From NCBI RefSeq assembly GCF_001458735.1, contig NZ_CZQA01000001.1:992001-1056000 (forward strand): a stretch of 64,000 nt of DNA, given 5' to 3'. The stretch is from Candidatus Nitrospira nitrosa (GTDB lineage Bacteria > Nitrospirota > Nitrospiria > Nitrospirales > Nitrospiraceae). Made by a program: the position numbers and the translations under genes. The first letter of the stretch is position 1, and each line of letters starts with the position of its first letter. Below the pieces are notes generated by a model. That model was not told the origin of the DNA, ran no database searches, and saw only the letters and a list, made by a program, of their open reading frames with translations. Of this stretch, positions 187 through 8,892 are shown piece by piece.

Positions 187-587
187 TCTTCCTGCAGTAG
201 CTTGCGCCATGCTGGTGTTCTGGTAGGTACGTCCTGCGCGCTTGTTTATTCATACTCTGGATCTTGAGCCTGTGGCACATCCGACCAGTTCCCAACGATG
301 GGCTGTGGACGAATACCGTGAGGTAGCATAGACCCTGATCTGGTTATCCTGTGACGAAGTGGATGCGAAGTCGAGGTAGCATGCAGGCTGGAGTGTGGTA
401 AACCGCTTACCACCGCCTACTACCCAGAGCCCAATCGGAATGTGAGCGGGTCAATGTTATTGCAGGCTCATCTGATCGTCCAATTTTTGAGAGAACTTCC
501 GGCCCTCGCCGCGTAATGCCACCAAAGAGCAGCATCGGAACGGTCTGGGCCGGAGATTCTTTTGGCGTGTCGATCAGGACGAACTAC
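187..587. other. Intergenic stretch without a recognised gene
   Basis: About 400 bp between the partial left-edge ORF and the stop of the RRM gene. I see no convincing coding frame, tRNA or terminator. The segment around 495-590 (cttccggccc then agattct and ttaccagcgatcg) is partly repeated near 1432-1470, where a broken copy of the RRM gene end lies. Confidence 0.4.
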
Positions 588-911
588 TTACCAGCGATCG
601 CGCTTTCCACCACGGCCACCGCCGCCGCCACCACCGAAACCACCACCACCGCCGCCAGAACGTTCCATTGGTTTCGCTTCATTGACCGTTAACGTGCGGC
701 CACCCATCTCTGACCCATGGAGTGCCGTGATTGCCGCGGCTGCCTCAGCATCCGAAGACATCTCCACGAAGCCAAATCCACGCGACTGTCCCGTGAACTT
801 ATCCGAGATGATCTTTGCCGAGGCCACCGTGCCATGGGCCCCGAATGTGTCAGACAATTGCTGCTCGGTCACCGAATACGGCAACCCACCGACGTAAAGC
901 TTTGAACCCAT
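588..911 (-). CDS. Glycine-rich RNA-binding protein (single RRM)
   Basis: A 107-residue protein made of one RNA-recognition motif followed by a glycine-rich tail. RNP2 is LYVGGL (residues 5-10) and RNP1 is RGFGFVEM (44-51); residues 85-102 are almost all glycine, ending in GKRDRW. This layout matches the small bacterial RRM proteins related to cyanobacterial Rbp, which bind RNA and are often cold-inducible. ATG at 911 was chosen over an upstream in-frame start because an AGGAGGA-type ribosome site lies just before it and the fold begins at once (MGSKLYVGG). A truncated relic of the same gene lies near 1432-1550. A hairpin at 1067-1101 lies upstream and could affect expression, which is inference. 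Confidence 0.9.
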   Translation of the reverse strand: MGSKLYVGGLPYSVTEQQLSDTFGAHGTVASAKIISDKFTGQSRGFGFVEMSSDAEAAAAITALHGSEMGGRTLTVNEAKPMERSGGGGGGFGGGGGGGRGGKRDRW

Positions 912-1066
912 CTTGGGCTCCTCCTGTGATGATGATATTGTCCATGACGCGAGAGGGTATCGTAAAAGGAAGGCGCGACCCAAGGATGGTCCGGTGTAAC
1001 GGGGCTCAGGCTCGACGTCCAATCACAGTCTCGGCAGGCACAACATCGATAATAGGCCGTCTTACG

Positions 1067-1101
1067 CTTGTTTCATGCGAGGCCTGACGCGATGAAACAA
1101 G
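1067..1101. promoter_or_regulatory. Inverted repeat upstream of the RRM gene
   Basis: CTTGTTTCATgCG and CGCGATGAAACAAG face each other across an 8-nt loop (aggcctga), a near-perfect stem of about 13 bp. There is no U-tract on either side, so a classical intrinsic terminator is not certain. It could be an operator or a transcript hairpin in the leader of the RRM gene, whose start is 156 bp away. Confidence 0.45.
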
Positions 1102-1189
1102 TCTAGTGTATCAAGATACGACGGCAATAGATAGCGTTCCTTATGGCGCGGGATTTCAGTGACTCCTCGGAGGTGAACAGCAGTCAAGA

Positions 1190-1207
1190 AGGCCTCCGGT
1201 CAGGCCT
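1190..1207. repeat. Short palindromic repeat, copy 1 (18 bp)
   Basis: AGGCCT-CCGGTC-AGGCCT, a self-complementary hexamer pair around a 6-nt loop. The identical 18 bp recur at 5971-5988. Both copies lie in non-coding sequence of the tRNA-Glu-linked accessory region. Confidence 0.6.
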
Positions 1208-1342
1208 GATCATAGGGGATGAGCGACGGCTTTCTAGGAAAAATTAAGCCTTCCAGGCTACGCCGGTGAGCAAGCTAAAGGGAGAGAAGGTCTACCGCTT
1301 TGAAGGCGAAGCTGCAGTGAATTGATTTTTCAATAGGTTAGC

Positions 1343-1394
1343 GTGCATTGAAAGGTGTGGTGTCCCCAAACCGGACATACACCTTTCAATGTCA
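1343..1394. repeat. tRNA-Glu-derived attachment-like site, copy R1 (most diverged)
   Basis: Contains GTGCATTGAAAGG and the tRNA-Glu 3'-end piece ggtgtccccaa (1359-1369). The core is bracketed by a perfect 11-bp inverted repeat, CATTGAAAGGT at 1346-1356 and ACCTTTCAATG at 1381-1391. The 50 bp to its left (gctttgaaggcgaagctgcagtg...) are a diverged version of sequence left of R2 and R3. Read as the boundary between two integrated cassettes; the tRNA homology and arms are seen, recombination is inferred. Confidence 0.7.
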
Positions 1395-1429
1395 CGTTGG
1401 GGGTATCCCGTCATCGCTCTTTCGGGGGA

Positions 1430-1550
1430 AATTCCGGCCCGAGAATCGTCGCAGGTTACCAGCGATCGTGCCTTCCACCATGTGACTGTCCCGTGAACTT
1501 GTCGGAGATGATCTTTGCAAAGGCTACCGTGTCATGGGCCCCGATGTCTC
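1430..1550 (-). pseudogene. Relic of the RRM-protein gene
   Basis: The stretch ttaccagcgatcgtgccttccacca is near-identical to the 3' end of the RRM gene at 588-612. It then jumps to sequence matching about 784-850 (gactgtcccgtgaactt, gagatgatctttg, tcatgggccccga). The central part, including the glycine-rich tail and RNP1 region, is deleted. Homologous non-coding sequence (gaaattccggccc) precedes it. No usable reading frame remains. It lies directly beside R1, so cassette movement or recombination between tandem copies probably created it. Confidence 0.7.
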
Positions 1551-1707
1551 GGTCTTTCCTGCGCAGCCGATACACACCACAAGCTTTAACATGAAGGGCC
1601 AAACAACGGCGCCGCCAAAATCAGCCGTATGGACAAGGCTCCGACGACTACACTACGGTAATAATGAGAGTGGCAAAGGCAAAGGCGTCAGGACCATGTG
1701 GTGCGTA

Positions 1708-2235
1708 TCAATGAACTCCGATTGTTCCTCCCGCATAGTTGCAGTTTGGGCGGATATCAGTAAATTCTGCACCAGTTGCCTGACCGTTCTGGTTCGGCTC
1801 AACTGCAAGGCGAATGTCAAAGGGCGTATCAGTGCATTCAGTTACTAGGATAGTTTGCCACTTCTTTTCATTAAAGCATGTCTCATAATTCTCGTTACAT
1901 GTTCTACATGTCTTAGGGATGCTAAACCATTTCCCGTACTGGCCGTTTTGAGGTTTAATCGATGCTCGGACAATGCAGTCCGATGTCATGTTAAGTAGGT
2001 TAAGCTTCCACGGGTTATCCTTTGCTGCTTGAGACTCTTGAATTGATTCGACTTCTGTAACGTCCATTGGTGTAAGAGACTTGAGATCATCGATTCCCGA
2101 TGTAAAACCTGTGGATGCGGCTTTAGAGCCAACGGAGTTTGTGCCAGCCATTTCCATCGAATTACAGCCGACAAAAGTAGTTGTACAAAGCATCATTACA
2201 GCCATTGGCCAAGATGTGACACGCCTAAAAATCAT
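1708..2235 (-). CDS. Small cysteine-containing lipoprotein, unknown function
   Basis: A 175-residue protein when started at the ATG at 2235, which follows GGAGGTG by six bases; an upstream in-frame ATG overlaps that ribosome site and is unlikely. Residues 1-25 are a lipoprotein signal with basic n-region, hydrophobic core and a lipobox ending FVGC. The mature part has an acidic linker, then a compact domain with several cysteines (SDCIV, KTCRTCNENYETCFNEKKW, TECTD, RPNCNY) that could form disulfides in the periplasm. I do not recognise the family. It is cargo of cassette B next to the FRG gene; its composition looks more AT-rich than the housekeeping genes. Confidence 0.75.
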   Translation of the reverse strand: MIFRRVTSWPMAVMMLCTTTFVGCNSMEMAGTNSVGSKAASTGFTSGIDDLKSLTPMDVTEVESIQESQAAKDNPWKLNLLNMTSDCIVRASIKPQNGQYGKWFSIPKTCRTCNENYETCFNEKKWQTILVTECTDTPFDIRLAVEPNQNGQATGAEFTDIRPNCNYAGGTIGVH

Positions 2236-2569
2236 TTTTAACACCTCCATTAGTTGAGCAAGAACATCTACTTATTAACAGGCCAATCTAGCTGCTTGTT
2301 GAAGATGTGTCCAGTCCTCTTCAGACTAAGGACATTCATGCCGTATTAAGTAGACCTTGATGGCCTAATCTTCATCCGTTTCTGTAGCTAGGGAGTGAAG
2401 GAGGCGAACCTACGGCCCGCTGATTAAGAGTCCCGCCCCTATTCAATCTCAGAACACTCAGGATACCCAAAACACCGAATCTCCATCGGTCAGCGAGGAT
2501 GAGACATGAAAGGATGTCATCCTAGTTGCCTGGCTCAGTGCGTTTGGCACCAGCTTGGCACCAAGCTTC
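2236..2569. other. Intergenic stretch carrying a tRNA-Lys fragment
   Basis: This 334-bp gap between two minus-strand genes has no credible ORF. Its one recognisable content is the 28-nt tRNA-Lys piece listed separately at 2405-2432. Confidence 0.4.
2405..2432 (-). repeat. 28-nt fragment of tRNA-Lys(CTT)
   Basis: Read on the minus strand this is identical to the tRNA-Lys at 12487-12562 from the anticodon arm through the variable region into the T-loop (GACTCTTAATCAG, then CGGGCCGTAGGTTCG). The rest of the tRNA is missing. Such a 3'-half fragment is the usual footprint of an integrative element that used a tRNA gene. It is inverted relative to the intact copy, so the two cannot be the simple direct-repeat ends of one element. 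Confidence 0.75.
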
Positions 2570-3409
2570 TCACGTTGAGTGGAACATTTCCCATCCATCT
2601 TTTGCTTGGTCGAAGATTACAGTCCTCTGTCTTTGCCGATTTCTTGGTAGGCCGAACGTTTCCATGAGGCTTTCCTCGCTCCCAAACAACGAGGATGCTG
2701 TCACATTCATACGTTGCAAACTTATCAAAACTTTCTCTCGCTCAGTCGTGGGAAGAATGTATTTTATCATTACGTCTTGCGGGCCCCCGCCGGTGACAAT
2801 CCCGATCTGATGGCTTTCATAGAAATCACCCTCCTGGTCAGCGACTTTGCAGATTGTATATTCGCACTGTTGAGCATAGTGGCGCTTGTGGCTGATTACA
2901 TAGGGGCCCAACCCATGAATGCTAGGAATGTCTGATGCCCAACCTTTGGCTTCGCCTATATATTCAGTAAACGCGTAGATGGCAACCTTTTCTTTCTCTG
3001 GGCTCCCGTTTGGTCTGAAGGCAAAGTATGCGGCGACGTAAGGTGAGCGGGTCCAATCAAGCAACGGTGATGGAAACCCATGATGCCGCAGATAAATCAT
3101 GAATTCGTACCCGGATGGAACAGAATCTTCAGGATCGAAGCTTTGAGGGAGGTCCCACTCTTTTCCGGTGAGTGAAATGACTGCTGGTCTTACAGCACGA
3201 ATGGCGGCGAAGTATTCTTCTCTTCCAAATCTTCGTTTCGCGAAGCGATCTAACGTCGTTTCTAGCTCCCAGGTTGCATCCGATTGTCCTCTAAAAATTG
3301 GCGTGGAAACGTGCAACGGCTTTTGGGTCTTCCTGAATTCCTCTATCCGACTGAATAGGCTTGTGATCCTAGCTTCAAACTTTTCCCAACTATCGAGTTC
3401 CATCTCCAT
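2570..3409 (-). CDS. FRG-domain protein
   Basis: A 279-residue protein. The FRG domain (PF08867) is clear: IFRGQSDATWEL near residue 40 and YLRHHGFPSPLLDWTRSP near residue 105, followed by VAAYFAF. No signal peptide or membrane segment is visible. The biochemical activity of FRG proteins is not settled; they are frequent in mobile and defence islands. ATG 3409 follows AAGGGGGTG; a GTG one codon upstream and another ATG two codons downstream are alternatives. It is cargo of cassette B with the lipoprotein downstream. A defence or anti-element role is inference from context only. Confidence 0.85.
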   Translation of the reverse strand: MEMELDSWEKFEARITSLFSRIEEFRKTQKPLHVSTPIFRGQSDATWELETTLDRFAKRRFGREEYFAAIRAVRPAVISLTGKEWDLPQSFDPEDSVPSGYEFMIYLRHHGFPSPLLDWTRSPYVAAYFAFRPNGSPEKEKVAIYAFTEYIGEAKGWASDIPSIHGLGPYVISHKRHYAQQCEYTICKVADQEGDFYESHQIGIVTGGGPQDVMIKYILPTTEREKVLISLQRMNVTASSLFGSEESLMETFGLPRNRQRQRTVIFDQAKDGWEMFHST

Positions 3410-3568
3410 CACATTGCACCCCCTTGGGTTTGGAATAAACCTGAGGAGATGGGACGATCATAGCGGCAGGGCCTCAATGCCTGCAATGGTTGGCCCGTTG
3501 ATTGCCTATCATAGGAATGGTCATTGCATACTTCATGGGGCGTGGCTCCAAAGGCCTGTAATGTCACC

Positions 3569-3899
3569 TGTATACATCCCCCCAAGCCTCAGCATACGAT
3601 GGTCCCGCGTCCTGCTTGTGACGTGGAGACCCGAGCGAAGGGCTGATCCCTCCGTGTCGGCGACCGGAACCTCACCGGACGCGGGGTTGTCCTTTTTCCA
3701 TACGGATCTGTGGGGGAGAGGGGCATGGACCGACCAACAAAACCACTGTGCACCAGCTCACACCACACATGCCCCCGCGCTGCGCCCACGGTGCGGGCTC
3801 GCGACTGGCGACACACAACAAAGGAGCCACGCGATGAGTGACCGCTACCTCGACGAAGACGAAAGCTTTTCGGCTACAGTGATGATGAGGTGAGAGGTA
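3569..3899 (+). repeat. ~330-bp cassette-end leader, copy 1
   Basis: Aligns along its whole length with 7127-7453 (diverged in the first two thirds, almost identical from the gactggcgacacac segment onward). It ends with a ribosome site, a 19-codon mini-ORF and the GTGAGAGGTAGAGACG sequence that runs into R2. It lies at the same place in both cassettes, just before the tRNA-derived site. GC-rich inverted segments (cctcaccgg...) suggest structured RNA. Confidence 0.7.
3834..3893 (+). CDS. 19-residue mini-ORF in the cassette leader, copy 1
   Basis: ATG at 3834 follows AAAGGAG by eight bases and encodes MSDRYLDEDESFSATVMMR, then TGA. A second copy at 7389-7448 keeps the ribosome site, length and all but two residues (DENKS instead of DEDES). 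It could be a leader peptide, a tiny cassette protein, or the truncated start of a longer gene cut by recombination at the adjacent site. Only the repeat and good ribosome site support translation. Confidence 0.4.
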   Translation: MSDRYLDEDESFSATVMMR

Positions 3900-3956
3900 G
3901 AGACGCGTTATTGCTTCAAGGAGAAGCCGCTGTGGGTAAACCTCTCAATTGCTTAG

Positions 3957-4009
3957 GTGCATTGAAAGGTATTGGTGTCCCCAATCGGAATGTCAGCCTT
4001 TCAATGTCG
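3957..4009. repeat. tRNA-Glu-derived attachment-like site, copy R2
   Basis: GTGCATTGAAAGG then ATTGGTGTCCCCAA (the tRNA-Glu 3' end, core 3974-3984). A perfect 10-bp inverted repeat, CATTGAAAGG at 3960-3969 and CCTTTCAATG at 3997-4006, brackets the core. The left flank from 3890 onward matches the left flank of R3 (8731-8826) almost base for base. Interpreted as the junction between cassettes A and B. Confidence 0.75.
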
Positions 4010-4233
4010 CCATTGGCCCACTTCGTGGTCCCATTTTCTGGGACAGTCACGACGGCGGCATGAACATTGGCGCAGCCCCTTTCAAATCCCAGGATCCAAC
4101 TGTACAGAATGAGACTATCCAATACTAAAGCGACCAGGTTTAAGACTGCCGATCGCAGGATGCTACCAAGGATGAATTTACCGGGATAGACTGGCAGCAA
4201 GGCGGTTTGCCAATGGTTGCTCTCGAAGTCACA

Positions 4234-5769
4234 CTAAAATGAGCGAGTCATTCGTTCATAATTGAAACTTCCAACTATCATCAGAATGAGCCCCATGCAA
4301 AATAGCGGTATAACATATAGTAGCGTCCCATAGAAGTAGTAGAAGGGCAGAATAATCAAATGCCATCCCAGCATAAGGGTTCCCGTTCCATGTAGAAAGA
4401 GACCCCAGTAGCGCATATGATAATAGCCAAAAATTCCCGCGAGTGACAAAAGTACGAATAGCCACTGATTCAGAGGCTTGAGGAAATATGTAGCTGATCC
4501 AAATGGTTGTGAAATCATTAAACCCGCATAGCCGGAGACAAGGAGTAGATTGCACAAAGATAAGATCGTTATGGAGCGAGGCCTTTGAACCTGTAATAAC
4601 GAGTTGCTATCAGTGGAACTATTTGGCAGCTGATCTCGAGAATAAACTATATCAGTTGTTTCTTGCTGGCGAGTATTCAGGTTCTGGAGTATCTGCAAGA
4701 CACTCCTTCGAAAGAAAATCCTAAAGCGAAAACTTACCTGTTGAACGGCTGCAACCTTACCAGACACATCAAAGGTAAACAGCGCCCCCTTCTTTTTGTA
4801 TTCAGGGAGAGTTATCCCTTCCTTGCTGAGTTCTGTTGTTGCTTCCTGCCATAGGTTGACCCAGTACTGTGTCCTTGTTTTCTCCGGCGGCATGACATAA
4901 ATACACTTACGAAACATGCCGTTGGATTTCAACCAACTGATTTCCCACAACGTCCCTGCGCGACTAGAAGGTAGTATCAATATGACTGAAGCTGTTCTTG
5001 CGAGTAATATAAACTTATTGTGCCAATCTTCCTCCGCAACATACACTCTGCCAGCACCTACATTTTCTCCTGGTTTACCCAGTGCAACCATGGGACCTAT
5101 GTTCTTGAGCGCGCTAGCAAAATAATCCTCTAGCTCGTATGTGTTAATCCTAAGGCTGAATGGGCTAGCGAACAATGACGGTGCTTGTAACTGTCCGGTG
5201 CTACTAAACGGTCTGAGAAAGAGAACAAATGACGTTTTGGTGGTCAAAGATGAGTCCTGAATATTTGCCAGCACTTCGGCAGCCAATCGGTCTCTTGCTG
5301 TTTGTTCGACTAGCAAGAAAAGTGTAACCGGAACGATCGCCATCAATCCTATCGGCCTAGCAATGTTCTGAGCATCTATTTGCAGAATCATAGCGTCAAA
5401 GTCGCCTCTGAATTTGAGCACATCGAAAAACCTAAGAATTCTTGAAGGCAACGTTGATTTTCCTCCATACTCACCACTGAAGGGCCCATAATAATCGTCA
5501 AAAATTCCGTATACTCCACCCAAATTAGAGCTGTTAGCCAATAGCCAATAACTTATCAGAGATGTGCTACATCCAATATAAGCTAGGAACAATAGTGACC
5601 GCTGACGTGGAGTATCAAAGAGCACAGGGAGTCTTTCTCGTACGAAGGCCAATCTTGGTGAACGCAGCAAGAAGTTCTGTTGCGCCCTAATAGCCCAAGA
5701 ACCGAACCAAAAGAGGACAGGGAGAACCAGAAGCCAAAAAATGACAAATTCCTGCAAATCACTAAGCAT
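4234..5769 (-). CDS. Multi-pass membrane protein with a TIR-like Rossmann domain
   Basis: 511 residues from ATG 5769 (a TTG five codons upstream is possible). Two to three N-terminal membrane helices (FVIFWLLVLPVLFWFGSWAI, then LLFLAYIGCSTSLISYWLL and MAIVPVTLFLLVE) precede a soluble domain of about 200 residues. That domain has VLFLRPF, a GKPGENVGAGRVYV loop, AEEDW and a strand VILILPSS followed by LWEISWL. This pattern recalls TIR/SEFIR-like nucleotide-binding folds of membrane proteins. At least three more C-terminal helices follow. It is AT-rich and cargo of cassette A. A role as a membrane effector is inference; I cannot name a characterised family. Confidence 0.7.
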   Translation of the reverse strand: MLSDLQEFVIFWLLVLPVLFWFGSWAIRAQQNFLLRSPRLAFVRERLPVLFDTPRQRSLLFLAYIGCSTSLISYWLLANSSNLGGVYGIFDDYYGPFSGEYGGKSTLPSRILRFFDVLKFRGDFDAMILQIDAQNIARPIGLMAIVPVTLFLLVEQTARDRLAAEVLANIQDSSLTTKTSFVLFLRPFSSTGQLQAPSLFASPFSLRINTYELEDYFASALKNIGPMVALGKPGENVGAGRVYVAEEDWHNKFILLARTASVILILPSSRAGTLWEISWLKSNGMFRKCIYVMPPEKTRTQYWVNLWQEATTELSKEGITLPEYKKKGALFTFDVSGKVAAVQQVSFRFRIFFRRSVLQILQNLNTRQQETTDIVYSRDQLPNSSTDSNSLLQVQRPRSITILSLCNLLLVSGYAGLMISQPFGSATYFLKPLNQWLFVLLSLAGIFGYYHMRYWGLFLHGTGTLMLGWHLIILPFYYFYGTLLYVIPLFCMGLILMIVGSFNYERMTRSF

Positions 5770-6142
5770 TTGTAGGGGTCCCAAGATGGCTAAACGAGCT
5801 GCGATGTTATATCAGAACTACCATTCTGAATAACGAGTAACGCAACATAATGTTAAAGAACTACATGTAAATCAAGAGAGGGAGTTCCGGTCTGCGAAGA
5901 CGGCGGTGAGAGCAGGCTCCAGCGAGGCAGCACGAGCCCTCCCCGTATTGAGTGAGGATCTCGCCCAGTTAGGCCTCCGGTCAGGCCTTACCATGTGAAG
6001 GGCTCGCTCCATCCAGGGGCGGGCCCTTGTATTTTGCGAGATTTCGCGTACCTTTCTTATTTGGTATCATACAAAATGTTGATGGCCTGCGCATTTTGTT
6101 TGATTGGACTTGCTCTCAACGTAGCCTGCAACAGGATAATGA
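5770..6142. other. Intergenic region between divergent cassette genes
   Basis: 373 bp between the minus-strand membrane protein and the plus-strand DUF4238 gene, so it should hold both promoters. It contains the second AGGCCT palindrome (5971-5988) and a GC-rich stretch (gggctcg, gggcgggccc). No ORF is credible. Confidence 0.4.
5971..5988. repeat. Short palindromic repeat, copy 2 (18 bp)
   Basis: Identical to 1190-1207 (AGGCCT-CCGGTC-AGGCCT). Flanking sequences do not match beyond a few bases, so it is a small mobile or regulatory motif rather than part of the larger duplication. Confidence 0.6.
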
Positions 6143-7042
6143 ATGACTAATAACCCTCGCGCCCATCATGTGGTTCCCGAGTCATACCTAGAACGGTTTA
6201 CCGATTCCTCAGGGTTTCTCCATGTGTATGATCGAACTGGTGATAAAAAATATAAGACACGACCAGATAACGTCATGCATCAACGCGACTATTACCGACA
6301 AGAATGGGCGCCAAAAGGCGTCGATCCGAACATATTCGAGAAGAAATTAGGAGAGTGGCTTGAGAATTCGGCCAAGAACACTATCGATCAGGTTATTGGT
6401 AACTCGCCGAATCTAACCGAACAGCAGGGTAGTGAGTTCCTTCTCTATCTAGAACTCCAACGAATTAAGGTTCCTAGGCAAAGCGTAATGGCGACGACCC
6501 TTATGCTTGACACGATCATGAAGTTGGCTCCTTCTGATCTGACGGATGCTGTCCGAACGGGCAAAATCCAACTCACGATAAATAAATCCGCTCACTTTCA
6601 CTACATGCGGATGATGCTGAAACAACTTATTCCCTGGTTCGCCGCTATGGAATGGGAAATCGTTACAGCTGATGAAGAATCATCGTTTATAACGACTGAT
6701 AGCCCAGTGTCTCTTTTTAATGTAGCGTGCCGTCCTCCTGCAGAACCAGGTATGGCATTGGCTGGAACAAAGGTTCTGTTTCCACTGACCTCGAAGCACC
6801 TTCTTATTCTACAACATCCTCGCCATCTTCGATCTAGGCCCCCATTGGAGGTCTTGCCTCATCCGGGGGAAATGGAAGACCATCTGCATCGAATAGATCG
6901 TGGCAGAGTATGGAACAAAAAGGCTGTCACGAGTCACAATCACGCAATGTTCCGGCTCGCGGATCGATTGATTGTGGGTAGTAGCTTGGAACAGCTCGAT
7001 GAATGTATCTTTCTATTATCCCAACCTATAGCCACTACGTAA
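6143..7042 (+). CDS. DUF4238 family protein
   Basis: 299 residues from ATG 6143 with AGGATAA upstream. The N-terminus has the family's hallmark: NNPRAHHVVPESYLERF then LHVYDRTGD and a DYY motif near residue 51. The paired histidines followed by VPxxYLxxF are typical of DUF4238 (PF14022). A later FITTDSPV strand-loop is also shared by members I know. The activity is uncharacterised to my knowledge; the conserved HH could be catalytic or metal-binding. No signal peptide or membrane helix. It is cargo of cassette A, divergent from the TIR-like membrane protein. Defence function is only suggested by context. Confidence 0.8.
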   Translation: MTNNPRAHHVVPESYLERFTDSSGFLHVYDRTGDKKYKTRPDNVMHQRDYYRQEWAPKGVDPNIFEKKLGEWLENSAKNTIDQVIGNSPNLTEQQGSEFLLYLELQRIKVPRQSVMATTLMLDTIMKLAPSDLTDAVRTGKIQLTINKSAHFHYMRMMLKQLIPWFAAMEWEIVTADEESSFITTDSPVSLFNVACRPPAEPGMALAGTKVLFPLTSKHLLILQHPRHLRSRPPLEVLPHPGEMEDHLHRIDRGRVWNKKAVTSHNHAMFRLADRLIVGSSLEQLDECIFLLSQPIATT

Positions 7043-7126
7043 TTGAGTAAGTCCGGGTTGGATAGGGATTCCCTACCGTAGTGCCCTCTTCATTGGATGG
7101 TATGGTGCAGAGCGATCTTGCACTTG

Positions 7127-7453
7127 TGTACATCCCCTCTCGCCCCACCGTACGATAGCTCCCACGTCCTGCTTGTGACGTGAGACCCAAGACGCGGGGG
7201 TCGCTCCCTTGTGGCTGCGACCGGCACCTCACCGGTCGCGGGGTCTTCTCTTCCCCACGAGGACCTGTAGAGGACAGGGGCTATGCCGATCACCACACCC
7301 ACTGTGCACCAGTTCACACGACACCGCCCCCGCGCTGCGCTCATGACCAGGGCCCGCGACTGGCGACACACAACAAAGGAGCCACGCGATGAGTGACCGC
7401 TACCTCGACGAAAACAAAAGCTTTTCGGCTACAGTGATGATGAGGTGAGAGGT
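7127..7453 (+). repeat. ~330-bp cassette-end leader, copy 2
   Basis: Second copy of the 3569-3899 leader. It retains gtcctgcttgtgacgtg, the cctcaccgg segment, gtgcaccag and the cgactggcgacacacaaca block, then the mini-ORF. The IS3-family element is inserted right at its end, separating it from the remainder of the R3 flank, which resumes at 8731. Confidence 0.7.
7389..7448 (+). CDS. 19-residue mini-ORF in the cassette leader, copy 2
   Basis: ATG 7389 after AAAGGAG encodes MSDRYLDENKSFSATVMMR and stops with TGA at 7446-7448. Length and ribosome site match the copy at 3834-3893; the two substitutions (ED to EN, E to K) come from G-to-A changes. The IS insertion lies directly behind the stop, so nothing longer can be read here now. 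Confidence 0.4.
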   Translation: MSDRYLDENKSFSATVMMR

Positions 7454-7512
7454 GGCTCCGGTTGGTTGGACAGTTTTTACCAGTTCATAAGTGGCGCCTG
7501 GCGGATTGCTGA

Positions 7513-8343
7513 CTACGCGGCAGTCCGTCGTGTGGTCAGATTGTCATAATAGACCTGGTCGGGCGTCTGGCCATCAAGCGCCTGATGCGGTCGGGTCTGG
7601 TTGTAGAACAGCAGATAGCGCTCCAGCCCCTGATAGGCAGTGCTGACCGTGTCATACGCGTGCAAATAGACCTCCTCATATTTCAGGCTTCTCCACAACC
7701 GTTCCACGAAGACGTTATCCCGCCAGCAGCCTTTGCCGTCCATGCTGATCTGAATGCCGTGGTCTTTCAAGAGTCCCGTGAACTCCTGGCTGGTGAACTG
7801 GCACCCTTGATCCGTGTTGAAGATCTCGGGGCAGCCATGCTGCGTGATCGCCTCTCGCACGGCGTCGAGACAGAAGTCCGTGGTCAACGTATTGGAGAGC
7901 CGCCAAGCCAACACTCGGCGACTGGCCCAGTCCAAGATAGCGAAGAGATACACGAAGCCGCGTCGCATCGGAATATAGGTGATATCGGCCGCCCAGACAT
8001 GATTGGGACGACAGATCGTGAGATCACGGAGGAGATACGGGTAGATGGTGTGGGCCGGATGCCGCCGACTCAGATGCGGTTTCCGATACAGCGCCTCAAT
8101 CCCCATCCTGCGCATGAGGGTGACCACCTGGCGTCGCCCAATGGCATGGCCCTCCTGCTGTAACAGATCGCGCAGCATCCGAGCCCCGGCAAAGGGATAG
8201 TTCAGATGCAGCTCGTCAATCCGCCGCATCAACGCCAGCGTCGTCTCGGAGGTCGGCGTCAGCTGGTAATAGGCGGTCGAGCGGGCCAGCTGCAGGAGTT
8301 GGCATTGCCGCACAACCGGCAAGGGATGCGTGCGATCGATCAT
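7513..8343 (-). CDS. IS3-family transposase OrfB (DDE integrase core)
   Basis: 276 residues. Retroviral-integrase-like DDE domain: first D in HVWAADITYIP, second in FNTDQGCQF, and the E in FVERLWRSLKYEE. An HTH_21-type segment (NYPFAGARMLRDLL) precedes it. The C-terminus carries FYNQTRPHQALDGQTP, typical of the family. It begins with ATG overlapping the orfA stop (ATGA), so it may be made by coupled re-initiation or by frameshifting to an OrfAB fusion. All catalytic residues are present, so the element looks intact. Confidence 0.95.
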   Translation of the reverse strand: MIDRTHPLPVVRQCQLLQLARSTAYYQLTPTSETTLALMRRIDELHLNYPFAGARMLRDLLQQEGHAIGRRQVVTLMRRMGIEALYRKPHLSRRHPAHTIYPYLLRDLTICRPNHVWAADITYIPMRRGFVYLFAILDWASRRVLAWRLSNTLTTDFCLDAVREAITQHGCPEIFNTDQGCQFTSQEFTGLLKDHGIQISMDGKGCWRDNVFVERLWRSLKYEEVYLHAYDTVSTAYQGLERYLLFYNQTRPHQALDGQTPDQVYYDNLTTRRTAA

Positions 8344-8639
8344 CGCTTTGCGCTCAGCAAGCCGGCCTTGGTGAGCGCGCCTTCTAAAAAATCATTCTCC
8401 AAGGTCAGTTGCCCGATCTTCGCGTGCAGGGTCTTGAGATCCGGAGCCTCCGCTGATGGTTTCGTCCCACCAAATACGTCCGAGGCTCGCGCCAGCAACT
8501 GCTGTTTCCATTCTGTGATCTGGGTGGGGTGGACGCTGAATTGCTCGGCCAATTCGGCCAGGGTCTTATCCCCTTTGACCGCGGCCAACGCCACCTGTGC
8601 TTTAAAGGTGGCTCCGTGATTCCGTCTCGTGCGTTTCAT
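8340..8639 (-). CDS. IS3-family transposase OrfA (helix-turn-helix)
   Basis: 99 residues from ATG 8639 (MKRTRRNHG), preceded by AAAGGAG. The N-terminal HTH of the HTH_8/IS3 OrfA type is seen in [23 protein letters not shown] and [14 protein letters not shown]; the C-terminal half is a leucine-zipper-like coil ([19 protein letters not shown]). It binds the element's ends with OrfB. Its stop codon overlaps the orfB start by four bases. Confidence 0.92.
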
Positions 8640-8730
8640 TGCCTCGCTCCTTTGTGTCGCCACCTTCCGGTGGCGTTGGTGAAGCCAGGCTCCCACTTAT
8701 CACACTGTCCGAATTTCCGAAGCCCTCTCT

Positions 8731-8826
8731 GTGAGAGGTAGAGACGCGTTATTGCTTCAAGGAGAAGCCGCTGTGGGTAAACCTCTCAATTGCTTAGGGT
8801 GCATTGAAAGGTATTGGTGTCCCCAA
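8731..8826. repeat. tRNA-Glu-proximal attachment-like site, copy R3
   Basis: Direct repeat of 3889-3984: GTGAGAGGTAGAGACGCG, ttgcttcaaggagaagccgc, tctcaattgctta, then GTGCATTGAAAGG (8799-8811) and ATTGGTGTCCCCAA, which here is the real 3' end of tRNA-Glu. Unlike R1 and R2, no CCTTTCAATG arm follows, because intact tRNA sequence does. That is what is expected for the junction of the last-integrated element with the tRNA. Confidence 0.75.
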
Positions 8827-8892
8827 CGGGATTTGAACCCGTGTTACTGCCTTGAAAGGGCAATGTCCTAGGCCAGGCTAGACGATGGGGAC
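8815..8892 (-). tRNA. tRNA-Glu (anticodon TTC)
   Basis: On the minus strand it begins GTCCCCA at 8892 and pairs with TGGGGAC at the 3' end, followed by A and an encoded CCA (8815-8817). The anticodon loop is CTTTCAA with stem GCCC/GGGC-type pairing, reading TTC. The T-arm ACGGGTTCAAATCCCGT is canonical. Its 3' end is the target reused in repeats R1 to R3. Confidence 0.95.

Follow-up and report, generated by a model that had tools for sequence, protein, structure and literature searches.

The closest known system appears to be the ssrA islands of Dehalococcoides (McMurdie et al. 2011, PMC3146451). There, dsiB, which encodes a serine recombinase of the DsiB/CcrB type, overlaps attL at its 3' end. 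The islands are stacked in tandem downstream of a stable RNA gene and carry direct repeats of the 3' end of that gene, and many of them are without an integration module. McMurdie et al. suggested that the integrase is perhaps complete only on the circle or beside another island. The cassettes described here, from Candidatus Nitrospira nitrosa and its relatives, share several features with these islands: the 3' end of a large serine recombinase (LSR) gene lies over the att site (attL/attP), the elements are stacked at an RNA gene, the 3' end of that gene is repeated, and there are members without the module. In contrast, their target is tRNA-Glu and not ssrA (tmRNA), so the Nitrospira cassettes are not classified as ssrA islands. 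Most of them are small (0.8–5 kb), their putative attP is palindromic, the integrase has a predicted circle-only tail under purifying selection, and an element of ~95 nt is common to cassettes. SCC elements, as far as McMurdie et al. (PMC3146451) describe them, are likewise site-specific elements that LSR-kind serine recombinases move at a single essential gene, but they use two of these enzymes, CcrA and CcrB, and their target is not a tRNA gene. No paper joining Nitrospira, tRNA genomic islands and a serine recombinase was found in the literature searched.

The LSRs of phages (A118/LI, phiC31, and Bxb1; PMC3783163) have the same set of Resolvase, Recombinase and zinc-ribbon domains, and their attP has inverted motifs where the ZD motif lies. 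They cross over at a central dinucleotide, as is presumed for the Nitrospira site. Unlike in these phages, the proposed Nitrospira attP lies within the integrase gene, and the tandem arrays can arise only if a cassette enters a site that is already occupied, a reaction at which typical enzymes are poor. In archaeal integrases of the SSV type, which are tyrosine recombinases, the att site also lies within the integrase gene, so that integration splits or alters the gene. The Nitrospira LSR is similar in this respect, but would swap its C-terminal tail only and stay nearly full length.

The window, the whole stretch of 64,000 nucleotides that was analysed, contains three cassettes stacked at a tRNA-Glu gene (Table 1). 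The outermost one had been predicted from the sequence-only reading, which expected a further cassette left of position 1343. It was found with a decayed left end, and the host flank beyond it matches that of genomes with an empty site. Cassette 1 is 96% identical in one relative, G032, and is conserved in many others. The RRM gene on an outermost cassette of ~0.9 kb (L040, L043, L044, L124, and others) is kept in many Nitrospira, and this cassette is apparently an old insertion that is now part of the host genome. The start of cassette 2 (1456–1544) repeats part of the cassette 1 RRM gene (588–844), which suggests recombination between cassettes. Some of the cargo resembles candidate anti-phage defence genes: the FRG domain corresponds to PADLOC PDC-S15, and DUF4238 to PADLOC DUF4238-Pers. 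The IS3-family element is flanked on both sides by duplicated GTGAGAGGT.

Table 1. Coordinates of the cassettes, their putative recombination sites and associated features in the window.
Feature	Position	Strand	Description
Cassette 1	432..1358		~0.93 kb; RRM RNA-binding protein gene 588–1022 (-)
Cassette 1 left end (putative P' half)	432..459	+	degenerate, CAATCGGAATGTGAGCGGGTCAATG; outermost junction with host flank
Cassette 1 right end	1283..1357	+	LSR 3' coding remnant, EKVYRFEGEAAVN-stop-FFNRLACIERC, one internal stop
R1, putative reconstituted attP (P·P')	1346..1391		palindrome, 13-bp arms, centre AA
Cassette 2	1368..3973		~2.6 kb; lipoprotein-like ORF 1708–2250 (-), FRG-domain protein 2570–3412 (-)
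Structured ~95-nt element, right part of cassette 2	3594..3690	+	candidate small RNA
Cassette 2 right end	3890..3982	+	LSR 3' remnant bearing the putative P half of the att site
R2, putative reconstituted attP (P·P')	3960..4006		joins cassettes 2 and 3; arms CATTGAAAGG / CCTTTCAATG
Cassette 3	3982..8815		~4.8 kb; 516-aa ORF 4234–5784 (-), DUF4238 protein 6143–7042 (+), IS3-family insertion
Cassette 3 left end	3983..4063	+	LSR C-terminal tail NRNVSLSMSPLAHFVVPFSGTVTTAA-stop, in frame across the junction
Structured element, second copy, cassette 3	7150..7246	+
IS3-family element, interrupts cassette 3 in its right end region	7454..8730 (approximate)	-	OrfA 8340–8696, OrfB 7513–8343
R3, putative attL	8802..8824	+	P half (CATTGAAAGG...TGGTGTCCCC) fused to tRNA half
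tRNA-Glu(TTC)	8815..8892	-	3' end TTGGGGACACCA, putative B' half of the site

The same tRNA-Glu gene is seen empty, singly occupied and stacked among relatives. In G035 (L142), the host flank, ...TATTCGGAATGATATTGGTGTCCCC / ...TCTATTCGGAATGATATTGGTGTCCCC, abuts the intact tRNA-Glu directly. In G007, the homologous host flank (81% over 970 bp) reaches the same base as in G035 and is followed by ...CCCCAATCGGAATGTGAACCTTTCAATG / CAATCGGAATGTGAACCTTTCAATG; the insert ends at the tRNA, and the tRNA side resumes 4.3 kb on. One 0.9-kb cassette is present in G115, and two cassettes each in G042 and G019. Comparison of empty and occupied sites reveals a short core, TGGTGTCCCCAA, common to attB, attL, and attR, as in elements integrated site-specifically by LSRs. 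In G032, cassettes 1 and 2 are followed by the tRNA with the P half directly on it, and cassette 3 is missing. This indicates that cassette 3 entered beside the tRNA, at an occupied site. G032 shows the state preceding this entry, by which R2 (P·P') came to lie behind the new cassette and R3 (P·B') beside the tRNA.

The sequence-only reading had reported perfect inverted repeats at R1 and R2. Both are real, and the length of 10 bp holds for R2 (CATTGAAAGG at 3960–3969 and CCTTTCAATG at 3997–4006, with a spacer of 27 nt), but the arms of R1 are 13 bp and not 11 bp long (1346–1358 and 1379–1391, with a spacer of 20 nt). The centre of R1 is the dinucleotide AA at 1368–1369, the arms are 14–23 bp away from it, and the palindromes span 46–47 bp. 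At R3, only the first arm is present (8802–8811), and intact tRNA-Glu follows, as the same reading had it. Apart from R1 and R2, the 64-kb window contains no perfect inverted repeat of 10 bp or longer whose spacer is 20–30 nt. Shuffled windows contain 0.55 such repeats on average (4 at most), and R2 by itself could therefore be explained by chance; R1 and R2 with identical arm sequence could hardly be. The exact pair CATTGAAAGG...CCTTTCAATG was seen only at R1 and R2 in the 4.4-Mb genome, and the arms were found to be retained at the junctions of Nitrospira relatives. Some P·P' junctions of relatives contain one or two arm mismatches, none of them compensated, which fits a protein-bound duplex site and does not fit obligatory strand pairing. 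A sequence similar to CATTGAAAGG, CCTTGAAAGG in the anticodon arm of the tRNA (8850–8859), was rejected, as about 5 matches with at most one mismatch are expected by chance.

The ends of the cassettes are coding DNA of an LSR. Among Nitrospira relatives with cassettes at the same tRNA-Glu, nearly all left ends encode the protein end NRNVNLSMSxLAHLVIPFSGExxAA, followed by a stop. The common type of right end encodes GEKVYRFEGEAAVNxFFNGLACIERxGVP and continues in frame into the left end. The right end of a cassette corresponds to the last ~30 residues of the LSR, read antisense into tRNA-Glu. In one longer remnant (L053), the upstream part LRGYLKDWSGLAQRHPAQTRQILRKLLP is the LSR C-terminal region, and the remnant matches the C-terminus of an intact LSR in G019, a MAG of Nitrospira sp. 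RSF1 (E=1e-29), with the same GVPN end. The LSR of G019 contains PF00239, PF07508, and PF13408 (Resolvase, Recombinase, and zinc ribbon), and its gene terminates antisense within tRNA-Glu. The genes of other Nitrospira LSRs (L090–L112) likewise run out on the antisense strand of an RNA gene, namely tRNA-Glu, -Ala, -Met, or -Arg, and one LSR has the tail GGGEGS, which is tmRNA-like in appearance. Antisense ending in RNA genes thus seems to be a general habit of this Nitrospira LSR group. The 56-aa conserved junction peptide has no match in Pfam and none in phages, and a single weak, chance-like match in plasmids. Close relatives of the G019 LSR were also sought in phages and plasmids, where only distant LSRs were found, with ~30% identity or less among the matches listed. 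Sequences similar to left ends are seen away from tRNA-Glu (L045, L046, L050; G019, G012, G031), either alone or 4 kb apart, and may be sites that have moved or secondary ones.

Codon comparison leads to the same reading of the ends. Among 25 distinct left ends, pN/pS of the tail codons is 0.49 in frame (bootstrap interval 0.38–0.61), versus 1.16 and 1.14 in the shifted frames. Stops interrupt none of the 25 tails in frame, versus 15 and 3 of them in the shifted frames. The pN/pS signal persists when the left ends of RRM cassettes and the other left ends are treated separately. At right ends, pN/pS is 0.50 in frame versus 1.04 and 0.91 shifted, in a set that includes one row (L041) out of register, a minor flaw. 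Synonymous difference is 0.14 in the first eight codons of the left ends (core and arm) versus 0.56 in the tail, and 0.175 in the right arm versus 0.58 in flanking codons; if only the five arm codons are counted, the interval is broad (0.03–0.38). The cassette ends are coding, and the arms are under further constraint at the DNA level. Few synonymous changes in the arms are as predicted for binding sites.

Taken together, R1 and R2 are best explained as the attP (P·P') of an LSR directed at the 3' end of tRNA-Glu, a site located inside the LSR gene itself; we give this reading a probability of about 0.88. The LSR would be of the Resolvase, Recombinase and zinc-ribbon type, with the 3' end of tRNA-Glu as attB. 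The right end of a cassette would supply the P half with the codons for ...GLACIERxGVP, and the left end the P' half with the codons for the remaining ~26 residues of the LSR tail. Crossover would take place within the common core TGGTGTCCCCAA, its probable point being the central AA, and would bring the P half up to the tRNA (attL) and leave the P' half at the opposite end (attR). With its terminal TGGTGTCCCC, the P half would give the acceptor strand and CCA back to the tRNA. The sequence-only reading had already proposed a recombinase site to which each cassette brings one arm per end, with the full palindrome only where two cassettes meet, and this agrees with R3, a P half followed by the tRNA. 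Also as expected there, a circle of one cassette would rebuild one palindrome from the P' half at its left end and the P half at its right end. The recombinase is now specified as an LSR, by the LSR coding DNA of the ends and by intact relatives in the same tRNA-Glu.

In the solved complex of the Listeria integrase with attP, the ZD motif occupies bp 16–24 of the 25-bp half-site (PMC3783163). The palindrome, with its arms 14–23 bp from the centre, is close in size and layout to an LSR attP, in which motifs lie ~16–24 bp from the central dinucleotide of a site of ~50 bp, and the ~10-bp arms are therefore most likely the ZD (zinc-ribbon) binding motifs of the attP half-sites. Two observations weigh against this reading. 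In G019, with the only intact LSR of this att family, the right arm GGGTAAATAC is not the mirror of the left arm, so that perfect symmetry is not required, and in the attP of G053, which carries a different intact LSR element, no clear palindrome was seen by eye. Nothing clear, again by eye, corresponded to an attB version of the ZD motif, and this did not enter into the evidence.

Stacking can be accounted for if the attP of an incoming cassette recombines with the resident attL (P·B'). The tRNA would then carry a newly formed P·B', with a P·P' palindrome behind it, and the newest cassette would lie nearest the tRNA, which is the order seen in comparison with G032. The serine integrases characterised so far work poorly on pairs of sites other than attP × attB (PMC3783163), so that the attP × attL route would require a less strict enzyme or a different mechanism, for example homologous recombination.

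The complete gene (PF00239, PF07508, and zinc ribbon) is present in the elements of G019 and G053, and the cassettes of the window contain 3' fragments only. On this basis they are not counted among full LSR elements but are classified as derivatives that are non-autonomous. No intact LSR was found in the host genome, which indicates that the array is either non-autonomous or a fossil; it is probably immobile now unless an LSR arrives in trans. It might even be that the junctions are dead relics of repeated LSR insertions, reshuffled now only by homologous recombination between cassette ends. Besides the lack of an LSR gene, this would agree with the decay of the remnants (a one-base insertion at R2 and R3, and a stop at R1), with the right ends of cassettes 2 and 3, identical over 68 bp as after repeat recombination, and with the apparently vertical inheritance of cassette 1 in many relatives. 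Against it, the arms are in many genomes more conserved than the protein code demands, the cargo at the same position varies between close relatives, and the same kind of left end accompanies the intact LSR of G019. We consider a relic array a serious possibility, somewhat short of an even chance. What is at issue here is present activity, and the proposed LSR origin would not be affected.

It is very improbable that a tyrosine integrase acts at the 3' end of this tRNA-Glu with the palindrome as its core site, the arrangement found in most tRNA islands. Tyrosine recombinase cores have an overlap of 6–8 bp, and the arm spacing of 20–27 nt far exceeds it; the sequence-only reading had considered spacers of 24–27 nt to match tyrosine-recombinase arms too. 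Four tyrosine recombinases are encoded in the genome, but all of them elsewhere, so that none lies beside the att site. Although the 3' ends of tRNA genes are usually targets of tyrosine integrases, at least in the account of PMC4383910, the cassette ends here encode LSR C-termini and an intact LSR gene ends in the same tRNA-Glu.

Least probable of all is an integron-like attC recombined as a folded single strand, which had also been suggested: no shuffle folds as well as the DNA hairpins of R1 and R2 (z -4 to -7), but arm differences between junctions are uncompensated (CACTGAACGG/CCTTTCAATG and CATTGAAAGG/CCTTTCACTG), the arms lack the GTTRRRY core, there is no Rfam match, and it is a tRNA, not attI, that anchors the array, whose ends are LSR coding DNA.

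The cassettes also share a structured element of ~95 nt, located upstream of the right end in at least 11 cassettes. It consists of a hairpin and a closed two-hairpin unit ending T-rich, with TACGAT before it, in the window and in relatives (L186–L199). Among 25 consensus pairs, 7 show double-sided changes, although few of the double changes are independent, as the sequences form about two groups. It matches no Rfam family. The element is present in 12 of 79 Nitrospira genomes, on contigs with tRNA-Glu arrays among the matches listed. It is a candidate for a small RNA or a cis-acting site of the cassettes, and appears to be a new, cassette-restricted structured element.

The location of the att site inside the end of its own gene means that insertion at the tRNA alters the tail of the enzyme. 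The LSR of G019 is predicted to be 585 aa long on the circle (...GVPNRNVNLSMSHLSSLMIPFAGTTNIAA) and 562 aa when integrated at the tRNA (...GVPNGI). For the different, 17.2-kb LSR element of G053, the predicted ends are ...GFKDFCNAAFGAWAIPFQGVVQAA on the circle and ...GFEPVLPA after integration. Both circle tails end in IPFxG...AA. Among LSRs located at other RNA genes, the search for circle tails gave a clear second end for G053 only, with less certain candidates in G052 and G058. Beside the tRNA, the LSR gene would run into the antisense strand of the tRNA, stop, and lose its tail, which a stacked element would regain from the neighbouring cassette. It can be speculated, tentatively, that this swap is a built-in switch, in which the tail of ~22–26 residues, present on the circle or a stacked copy and lost beside the tRNA, tunes integration versus excision or entry into occupied sites. 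Small cassettes might then be served by these enzymes in trans, with no more than att halves and their own structured RNA.

A conserved, protein-coding circle-only tail under purifying selection would be a new feature. The question raised by McMurdie et al., whether the integrase is complete only on the circle, is now directly testable with the tails, intact LSRs and empty sites of these relatives. The natural series of zero, one, two and three cassettes at one tRNA shows how serine-recombinase islands stack, a series that the standard attP × attB rules do not explain.
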